A DNA stretch of 47,376 bases from an uncultured Alphaproteobacteria bacterium. Its GTDB lineage: Bacteria; Pseudomonadota; Alphaproteobacteria; RF32; CAG-239. Position 1 is the first letter of the stretch. Each line of letters opens with the position of its first letter. The position numbers and the translations under genes are program-made. This document shows, one piece after another, positions 22,946 to 25,203 of this stretch. The notes beneath the pieces were generated by a model. That model was given only the letters and a program-made list of their open reading frames with translations, was not told the DNA's origin and made no database searches. The stretch spans positions 1 to 47,376 of the forward strand of contig CALYBB010000028.1 of NCBI GenBank assembly GCA_944393715.1, read 5' to 3'.

Positions 22946-23893
22946 CTAGGAGGAACAACTATCAAAATTACACATCTTTAGAAAATCTGATGAGCTGAGC
23001 TCTTTGTCATAATAAAAGAAACAACGGTATTGATAAGATTCTTCTTTTGATTTTTTCTCTGGACCGAAGCCCAGTTTGACGGCCAAAGCGTTATTGGCGT
23101 CGACTTCATTAGATGTCCAATAATAACTGTCGGTATTAATTTCATTAACCTGCACATTATAATGTTCTTTAATATCGGGAATTATTACCTGATTAAACTT
23201 AGACGCTATCTGTCTCATCTTCTGTACTTCTTTGGCGCTAGGTAAAAATGTGTCGCCATTAATGTCTGCAAAATTAACCGTGCCGTAGCATTTTTTAATG
23301 ACCGTGGAAGCATAAACGTTGCCTGAAGCTTGAGCGTCCTTAAACCACGGGTGATAGGTGTTGCAATAGCCTAATTTTTCACAGGATTTTGTGACATTGG
23401 TGTACTGTGTACAGCCTACCCCCTCGCCGCCTATCTCATTGTATCCGTTAGGAGTATTGTATACACAATTGCCCACACCGGTATCTCCGCCTGCCCTTCC
23501 CCACCGTTCAAGTCGTATACTACTATTAGGATCATATTCATCTAGAGCTGCCGCCAGAGAGGTCGTTGCGTCAACTATGATCCCCATAGGCACGCGGTCT
23601 GTCGGAAAACCGTTGTAACATTTTCTATTGTCGTATATTATCATGCCGTTACCGCAGCTTGACTCTACCGGACTGTCATCCGCCTCGCCACTTTCTTCTT
23701 TCTTGGGAGCGCAGTAATAGCCGTCACCAAAAGGACATTTTAATTTGGCCGCGCTGCCGCATTCGGAAGCCGTCATATCATACCCCAGCTCGCTGCAAGA
23801 CGGCGGGGTAGAGCAGTCAACAGCCGCATAAGCGCCGCCAACCGCAGCACTAACTAAAACGACGCTAGTCAGCAACAAGTACTTTTTCATCAT
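22946..23893 (-). CDS. Secreted cysteine-rich protein A, DUF1566/Lcl-like C-terminus
   Basis: 315 residues with a signal peptide (LLLTSVVLVSAAVGGAYA, cleavage near residue 23), then a Cys-rich unit DCSTPPSCSELGYD ... AAKLKCPFGDGYYC. The C-terminal half, with FLPSAKEVQKM and YYWTSNEVDANNALAVKL, resembles DUF1566 / Lcl C-terminal domains, which have a 'LPT.EE ... YWSS' pattern and occur in secreted or surface proteins. Cysteines are plentiful (about 18), implying disulfides in the periplasm or outside the cell. The first 183 bp are almost identical to the divergent gene at 24217, after which the two drift with short identical patches. Function unknown; a surface antigen or adhesin is plausible. 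Confidence 0.8.
   Translation of the reverse strand: MMKKYLLLTSVVLVSAAVGGAYAAVDCSTPPSCSELGYDMTASECGSAAKLKCPFGDGYYCAPKKEESGEADDSPVESSCGNGMIIYDNRKCYNGFPTDRVPMGIIVDATTSLAAALDEYDPNSSIRLERWGRAGGDTGVGNCVYNTPNGYNEIGGEGVGCTQYTNVTKSCEKLGYCNTYHPWFKDAQASGNVYASTVIKKCYGTVNFADINGDTFLPSAKEVQKMRQIASKFNQVIIPDIKEHYNVQVNEINTDSYYWTSNEVDANNALAVKLGFGPEKKSKEESYQYRCFFYYDKELSSSDFLKMCNFDSCSS
23711..23893 (-). repeat. Inverted long repeat, left arm (5' end of secreted protein A)
   Basis: 183 bp that match the first 183 bp of the divergent paralogue (24217-24399) in inverted orientation with four mismatches by my count, three of them in the first 20 bases. The match stops abruptly after the codon for the Cys in DGYYC. 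Confidence 0.9.
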
Positions 23894-23910
23894 CTTTTAT
23901 CTCCCTTGCT

Positions 23911-23940
23911 GTTGCAAAAAAAGGTTCCTTTTTTTGCAAC
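23911..23940. repeat. 30-bp near-palindrome, copy 1 (core TT)
   Basis: Half-site GTTGCAAAAAAAGG, core TT, then the complementary half-site CCTTTTTTTGCAAC. It lies in the leader of the minus-strand secreted protein, 17 bases upstream of its ATG. Confidence 0.9.
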
Positions 23941-24005
23941 GTTCTTTTATGAGCCTAAGCCCTATTTTCTTATTGTTTTTACTATATTTTTTTTGCCCCT
24001 TTGCT

Positions 24006-24035
24006 GTTGCAAAAAAAGGAACCTTTTTTTGCAAC
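24006..24035. repeat. 30-bp near-palindrome, copy 2 (core AA)
   Basis: Same half-sites as copies 1 and 3, but the two-base core is AA, so the element is in the opposite orientation to both neighbours. Confidence 0.9.
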
Positions 24036-24045
24036 ACTTTTATCC

Positions 24046-24074
24046 ATGATAACATGCAATGGTTAAAAAAGCAA
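24046..24074 (-). promoter_or_regulatory. Candidate sigma-70-type promoter facing secreted protein A
   Basis: On the minus strand, TTGCTT (24069-24074) and TATCAT (24046-24051) are separated by exactly 17 bases. Transcription would run leftward through palindrome copies 2 and 1 into the gene ending at 22946. The opposite direction shows only weak hexamers (for example TTGATT at 24092 with TATGGC at 24115). Confidence 0.45.
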
Positions 24075-24157
24075 TAACAATGCATAACTGATTGATTGAC
24101 CTATATTTTATCCGTATGGCCAGCCACATTGCGCAAATTAATCTCTTCTCTCAATCT

Positions 24158-24187
24158 GTTGCAAAAAAAGGTTCCTTTTTTTGCAAC
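24158..24187. repeat. 30-bp near-palindrome, copy 3 (core TT)
   Basis: Identical in orientation to copy 1. It lies in the leader of the plus-strand secreted protein, 29 bases upstream of its ATG; flanking bases (TCT and AGA) extend the inverted repeat by three pairs. Confidence 0.9.
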
Positions 24188-24216: not shown

Positions 24217-24399
24217 ATGATGAAAAGATATTTGTTGCTGACTAGCGTCGTTTTAGTTAGTGCTGCGGTTGGCGGCGCTTATGCGGCTGTTGACTGCTCG
24301 ACCCCGCCGTCTTGCAGCGAGCTGGGGTATGATATGACGGCTTCCGAATGCGGCAGCGCGGCCAAATTAAAATGTCCTTTTGGTGACGGCTATTACTGC
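24217..24399 (+). repeat. Inverted long repeat, right arm (5' end of secreted protein B)
   Basis: Near-identical inverted copy of 23711-23893. The region encodes the signal peptide and first Cys-rich unit. A further 27-base identical patch (the codons around CYNGFPTDR) occurs about 100 bases downstream in both genes. Confidence 0.9.
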
Positions 24400-25203
24400 G
24401 TTCCCGAAGACGGCGGAGGCAGTTCGACCGAACCGGATACACCCGCCGTATCAACGGCATCATGCGGCAATGGTATGATACTTTACGATGATATGCAATG
24501 TTACAACGGTTTTCCGACAGACCGCACGCCGGTTGGCATCGTGATTGACGCAAAAAACTCTATGGCGGCGGTTTTGACGCCCAATCAGGGAACGGTTTGG
24601 GGAATAAAAGGCACAAATACCGGTTTGGGTGATTGCGCAATCGCCGGCAACTCCTATGCGGATGATGGCAAGTATGCAGATATAGGTGGTGAAGGACTGG
24701 GCTGTACTTTTAGCGGCTTTGAAAATAACTGGACGCAGTCGATTTGTACGACAACCAGTTGTGAAAAATTGGGCTATTGCAACTCAAGCCATCCGTGGCT
24801 GATTAACCGATCTGATGCCTCTATCTTTAATAAATGCGGCGGCTCGGTTAATTTCTCAAGCGCCGACACTAGCGACTTTTTACCCAGCGCCAAAGAAGTA
24901 AGAATGATGGCCGTCATAAAAGATAAATTTAATCAGTCAATTGCCAGTATTAGAGAACATTATAGTACTTTAAATAATCCTAATAGTGCTGAGGAAATTA
25001 ATACCAATTATTATTGGACATCTAATGAAGCTGATGCCAATAATGCCTTGGCCGTCAACATGAACACTAATCTTGGAACCAAGATAGAGACAAAAGATAA
25101 GGCATCGTACTTCGAATCGCGTTGTGTCTTTTATTATGGCAGCAAACTCGGTTCACTTGATTTCCTATCGACGTGTAAGTTTAATGCTGACAGTTTCCCA
25201 TAA
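24217..25203 (+). CDS. Secreted cysteine-rich protein B, DUF1566/Lcl-like C-terminus
   Basis: 328 residues, paralogue of the divergent gene at 22946-23893. Same signal peptide and DCSTPPSCSELGYD ... GDGYYC unit, then SCGNGMILYDDMQCYNGFPTDR. A variable middle (loops around WGIKGTNTGLGDC and CTFSGFENNW) differs from its partner. The C-terminal part contains FLPSAKEVRMM and YYWTSNEADANNALAV, as in DUF1566/Lcl-like domains. Conserved framework with variable segments suits a surface-exposed antigen or adhesin under diversifying selection. GAGGGAGGG precedes the ATG; a strong terminator follows. Whether both copies are expressed together is an open question because of the palindromes upstream. Confidence 0.8.
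   Translation: MMKRYLLLTSVVLVSAAVGGAYAAVDCSTPPSCSELGYDMTASECGSAAKLKCPFGDGYYCVPEDGGGSSTEPDTPAVSTASCGNGMILYDDMQCYNGFPTDRTPVGIVIDAKNSMAAVLTPNQGTVWGIKGTNTGLGDCAIAGNSYADDGKYADIGGEGLGCTFSGFENNWTQSICTTTSCEKLGYCNSSHPWLINRSDASIFNKCGGSVNFSSADTSDFLPSAKEVRMMAVIKDKFNQSIASIREHYSTLNNPNSAEEINTNYYWTSNEADANNALAVNMNTNLGTKIETKDKASYFESRCVFYYGSKLGSLDFLSTCKFNADSFP

Follow-up and report, generated by a model that had tools for sequence, protein, structure and literature searches.

Three copies of a 30-bp element between two divergent genes for secreted proteins are probably crossover sites of a trans-acting invertase of the Mpi type, which would work the leader switches of a 13-gene family. This reading is carried by the sites themselves, by an intact enzyme encoded in the same genome, by the joint variation of sites and enzyme across species, and by a short leader segment (S) present in both orientations at paralogous loci, all of which are read directly from the sequences. 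The window, that is, the whole stretch of DNA that was analysed (47,376 nucleotides), belongs to genome G000; its relevant features are listed below, with E1 to E3 denoting the three sites.

22946 to 23893, minus strand: gene A, for a 315-aa secreted Lcl_C-like family protein, putatively ON
23901 to 23907, minus strand: Shine-Dalgarno sequence of gene A (AAGGGAG), adjoining E1 and predicted to be partly open now
23911 to 23940, no strand: site E1 on the gene-A side, core TT, exact copy of the 30-bp element
23941 to 24005, minus strand: segment S, 65 bp, in the putative ON orientation; reverse complement of S at loci L018, L019, L020 and L023b
24006 to 24035, no strand: site E2 on the promoter side, core AA (complementary to E1 and E3), exact copy
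24036 to 24157, minus strand: promoter cassette, 122 bp, with the promoter pointing to gene A
24046 to 24074, minus strand: conserved promoter, TTGCTT (24074-24069), 17 bp, TATCAT (24051-24046), 10 bp upstream of E2
24158 to 24187, no strand: site E3 on the gene-B side, core TT, exact copy
24217 to 25203, plus strand: gene B, for a 328-aa paralogue of A, putatively OFF, as the promoter points away

Sites in the leaders of one secreted protein family

E1, E2 and E3 have the architecture GTTGCAAAAAAAGG-NN-CCTTTTTTTGCAAC, and the three copies with half-sites around the cores TT, AA and TT lie exactly where the preliminary description had placed them. With up to three mismatches allowed, the 30-bp pattern occurs at 19 places in the 1.40-Mb genome (18 without a mismatch), whereas the reversed pattern, used as a control, occurs at none. 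Another two copies, each with a 1-bp deletion, fall outside the pattern matches and bring the total in the genome to 21. The genome-wide search proposed earlier placed all of them in leaders that belong to a single secreted, Lcl_C-like protein family, and nowhere else. The site sequence is kept to the base across the genome while the flanks differ, and each site, close to the 5' end of a leader, forms a perfect hairpin; at L022 a single site lies between promoter and gene. The exact element had no match in GTDB r220 genome contigs or IMG/VR, so there was no second strain to show the other orientation. The layout is that of a crossover site, with inverted half-sites around a 2-bp core. Inversion requires neighbouring sites to have complementary cores, and 9 of 11 adjacent pairs do (P 0.00055). 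The cores no longer match at L016 and L017, and both loci may therefore be frozen or locked. Site centres are 95-97 bp apart, a short distance for a serine invertase.

Proteins A (minus strand) and B (plus strand), described previously as divergent secreted paralogues, are indeed that and share 60% identity. Their family has 13 full-length members in the genome; a site is found directly in front of 12, and the remaining member stands in tandem behind another. Members have an N-terminal signal peptide and shared conserved cysteines, and six of the 13 match Lcl_C, described in Pfam as the C-terminal domain of a Legionella adhesin. The first Foldseek match of a model of protein B (mean pLDDT 70) is the Lcl C-terminal domain 8q4e, which, with a probability of 1.00 but an E value of 0.026, is suggestive only. 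The family proteins are presumably adhesin-like in function.

The invertase and its distribution relative to the sites

The genome was searched for serine and tyrosine invertases, a check also set earlier. It encodes one intact small serine recombinase of 197 aa (G000:C41:26757-27347), which scores 295.6 bits against NCBIfam NF009949 ('master DNA invertase Mpi'; cut-off 272). Its catalytic motifs GYIRVS and LSRLGR are kept, as an alignment to a DNA invertase and gamma-delta resolvase shows. The only tyrosine recombinases found, two in number, were set aside because both resemble XerC/XerD. The arrangement is one of a single enzyme and many dispersed sites, with the 21 sites in family leaders and the invertase gene on a contig other than that of the window.

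A relaxed site pattern was then applied to 33 genomes of the genus. It gave 19 matches in G000, 17 in G002, nine in G022 and two in G006, and none in the 29 other congeners. The closest orthologues of the invertase are those of G002 (80%) and G022 (78%), the next best being at 64%; apart from G000 itself, many related sites are found among the 33 genomes only in these two holders of the closest orthologues. Sites and invertase orthologues, as judged from these genomes, vary together across species. The sites of G002 and G022 keep the layout of A-tract and core and differ in the outer bases, and the C-terminal helix-turn-helix parts of the G000, G002 and G022 invertases likewise differ. A scan for palindromes with a 2-bp core around other invertase genes yielded one clear site-like match, in G006, the remaining palindromes near those genes being terminator-like or due to chance. 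From the covariation, and by exclusion, we infer that this Mpi-type enzyme acts on these sites. The earlier comparison with serine-invertase crossover sites has thus gained good support from the Mpi-family invertase, its covariation with the sites, the compatibility of the cores and the inverted S segments among paralogous loci.

A second Mpi-like gene in this genome (L025:1318-1905), located on another contig from the intact invertase, has lost the catalytic arginines. At L039:2352-2978, L040:2342-2941, L045:2300-2944 and L047:2333-2923 in congeners, such an Mpi-like gene adjoins that of an intact Mpi-type invertase; the arginine-less protein may be a regulator or a DNA-binding partner. In all three species (L024, L135, L136), the invertase gene is divergent from a gene whose product, large and secreted, starts like an autotransporter (MKKTLLIIAG...TTTVPSGETVQGGDVN). 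Invertases with 63-69% identity are also found in MAGs named Elusimicrobiota and Gastranaerophilales (L137, L143, L140, L142), suggesting horizontal transfer of the invertase or misbinned contigs.

Candidate invertible segments and leader hairpins

The sites delimit two kinds of candidate invertible segments, the promoter cassette and S. The leftward promoter-like sequence noticed previously (TTGCTT, 17 bp, TATCAT) is real; a promoter of the form TTATTGYTTTTTTAA...TATNNT recurs at a near-fixed distance before a site at 23 loci in three species. A simple promoter scan did not call it because TTGCTT/TATCAT is weak against the scan consensus, and the claim is based on conservation across loci instead. 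Cassettes are 122-126 bp long in this genome and 96 bp in G002, and those of the window, L021 and L023 (two cassettes) are bounded by complementary cores. The promoter has the identical orientation, away from the gene on the non-promoter side, in all 11 cassettes read (four in this genome, five in G002 and two in G022), none of which is inverted. In G002 and G022 the syntenic locus was located through its flavin-reductase neighbour, and the promoter points the same way there. It is therefore from the anatomy that cassette inversion is suggested. The proposal that a flip of 24036-24157 would turn the promoter from A to B is no more than compatible with the data: all 11 cassettes have one orientation, and it is the neighbouring segment that is found inverted. 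The cassette at L021:3755-3878 faces a flagellar operon that begins with a flgI-like gene, and the site between them is followed by a T-run. It is 98% identical to the cassette at L023:3905-4030 on a different contig, despite the differing genes, as if cassettes had been exchanged between loci.

S has no promoter inside and sits between promoter and gene; its length is 65-67 bp at seven loci of this genome and 61-72 bp in relatives. When all are read along the direction of transcription, these seven segments fall into two orientation groups, L016, L017 and the window versus L018, L019, L020 and L023b, with alignments in the same orientation within a group and only as reverse complement between groups. 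For instance, the S segments of L017 and L019 reach 84% identity when one of them is reverse-complemented, and in that orientation only (score 94, shuffles at most 9). In G002, S of L123 is reversed relative to L116, L120 and L122. Since L017, L019 and L020 serve closely related genes, more than one inversion of S is likely to have occurred. The best evidence for inversion, which comes from comparison between loci, concerns 23941-24005 and not the promoter segment 24036-24157; flipping within a population would be expected. Short segments are flipped at some loci and not at others, and the system therefore looks like a set of on/off switches with one recombinase. S probably acts through the leader RNA. 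Most S segments in the ON orientation have a short ORF with its own Shine-Dalgarno sequence (for example MSKNNGKNDF, MSQNNGKNDL and MRKNKGKNNF), possibly encoding a leader peptide; in the copy of the window, the ATG of this ORF is lost.

The two groups, designated ON (L016, L017 and the window) and OFF, also differ in the predicted folding of the leader. In the OFF group, the flanks of both sites extend the palindrome and an in-silico flip of S abolishes the extension; in the ON group, the flip has the reverse effect, less cleanly. With S in the OFF form, the gene-side hairpin is predicted at about -22 to -34 kcal/mol, versus -15 to -18 kcal/mol in the ON form. Pairing of the OFF-state S end with the flank of its own gene has a mean of 6.87, versus 3.42 with other genes and 1.00 in the ON state, and the own-pair sum is reached by 6 of 5040 permutations. 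The promoter-side site is mostly followed by a T-run at OFF loci and by purine-rich sequence at ON loci; L023b, OFF by the orientation of S, is without a clean T-run. The L020 leader was not called in a terminator scan, probably because the T-run is absorbed into the stem. The predicted probability of the Shine-Dalgarno sequence being unpaired is 0-0.04 at the four OFF loci and 0.53-0.65 at the three ON loci; for gene A it is 0.53 as is and 0.16 with S flipped. The effect is weak at L016 (0.65 to 0.40), and in G002 the Shine-Dalgarno sequence of the gene lies outside the hairpin. Masking may thus be specific to this species and not general.

We propose that the C41 invertase would act in trans on the 30-bp sites of the family leaders, recombining both the 122-126 bp promoter cassettes and the 65-67 bp S segments, and that the RNA of each site would also fold into a hairpin close to the mRNA 5' end. 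In the OFF state, the flanks would extend the hairpin, the T-run behind the first hairpin would make it terminator-like and the second hairpin would bury the Shine-Dalgarno sequence of the gene. In the ON state, with S inverted, the flanks would be unpaired, purine-rich sequence would stand behind the first hairpin and the Shine-Dalgarno sequence would be freed. The sequenced window would have gene A in the ON and gene B in the OFF configuration. The termination and masking steps are the more conjectural part: we give roughly even chances to the idea that serine-invertase half-sites double as the halves of an RNA switch, such that inversion of a promoterless 65-bp segment leads either to termination and a hidden ribosome-binding site or to translation, with one enzyme serving about a dozen adhesin-like genes.

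Alternative explanations and known systems

The elements might be static hairpins of the leaders, or else dispersed palindromic repeats resembling REP or MITE elements, and serve mRNA stability or regulation with no recombination. Such a role would suit the perfect hairpin formed by every element near the leader 5' end, the locus-specific complementarity of the flanks and the single site of L022, but it accounts neither for S in both orientations in two species, nor for the matching cores within loci, nor for the covariation of sites with the invertase orthologue; the confinement of all copies to the leaders of one gene family also argues against dispersed repeats. We consider this explanation unlikely, and slightly more so inversion by general recombination or template switching at long palindromes, with no dedicated recombinase. 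Palindromes can promote template switching, which could yield locus-specific flank complementarity, and 30-bp perfect inverted repeats are present. However, three observations point to an enzyme: 2-bp cores that permit inversion in 9 of 11 pairs, sites conserved to the base between differing flanks, and the co-occurrence of these sites with close Mpi orthologues.

The model of the preliminary description, in which only the cassette between E2 and E3 inverts and so chooses A or B, is about as improbable as static hairpins. It agrees with the conserved promoter inside the cassette, with the complementary cores of E2 and E3 and with the complementary flanks of E3, which extend the stem by 6 bp, as at OFF sites. 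Yet none of the cassettes read has its promoter facing the gene on the non-promoter side, the promoter of the syntenic locus has the same orientation in three species, and the segment seen inverted is the neighbouring S. Very improbable, finally, is that the palindromes are operators of a dimeric transcription factor: symmetric half-sites do adjoin the promoter, but the elements come after the inferred start and recur where the leader meets the gene, and inverted segments and matching cores would go unexplained.

The system that we favour would combine phase variation of the Mpi type with a leader switch like that of cwpV. If this is true, global single-invertase phase variation would reach beyond Bacteroides into uncultured gut-type alphaproteobacteria, where no report of it was found in the open literature searched, and the design would be simple, the recombination site being the regulatory hairpin itself. 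The open literature searched likewise yielded no paper in which DNA inversion masks a Shine-Dalgarno sequence, which is weak evidence, most subscription papers being outside the search. For inversion calling in gut metagenomes, the site set offers targets that can be used directly.

In hix, a 2-bp core is flanked by half-sites that have an A-tract, and the sites described here resemble those of Hin/hix and Gin/gix in this respect; the catalytic domain of the invertase is similar to those of Gin and gamma-delta resolvase. Unlike in Hin/hix and Gin/gix, the recombinase gene lies away from the switches, the sites are many and the segments far shorter. Mpi of Bacteroides fragilis is a master invertase, one enzyme acting on many loci (Coyne et al. 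2003, as described in PMC4747536 and PMC5903667). Common to both systems are a single small serine recombinase, assigned to one and the same NCBIfam family, and many dispersed short segments, candidate invertible ones in the present case, with surface-molecule targets. By contrast, the host here is an alphaproteobacterium, a class in which a 2018 survey detected no inversion signature among the four samples tested (PMC5903667), the targets are secreted Lcl_C-like proteins and not capsule loci, the half-sites differ between species, and most segments are promoterless leader pieces of 65-67 bp. In cwpV of Clostridioides difficile, switched by RecV, the promoter lies outside the invertible segment and the OFF orientation forms a Rho-independent terminator in the leader, the precedent for the OFF terminator proposed here (PMC5386303). 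S is likewise promoterless, with the promoter outside. The differences from cwpV are that RecV is a tyrosine recombinase whereas the present enzyme is a serine invertase, that here the hairpin is formed by the crossover site, and that the OFF orientation is predicted to bury the Shine-Dalgarno sequence as well.
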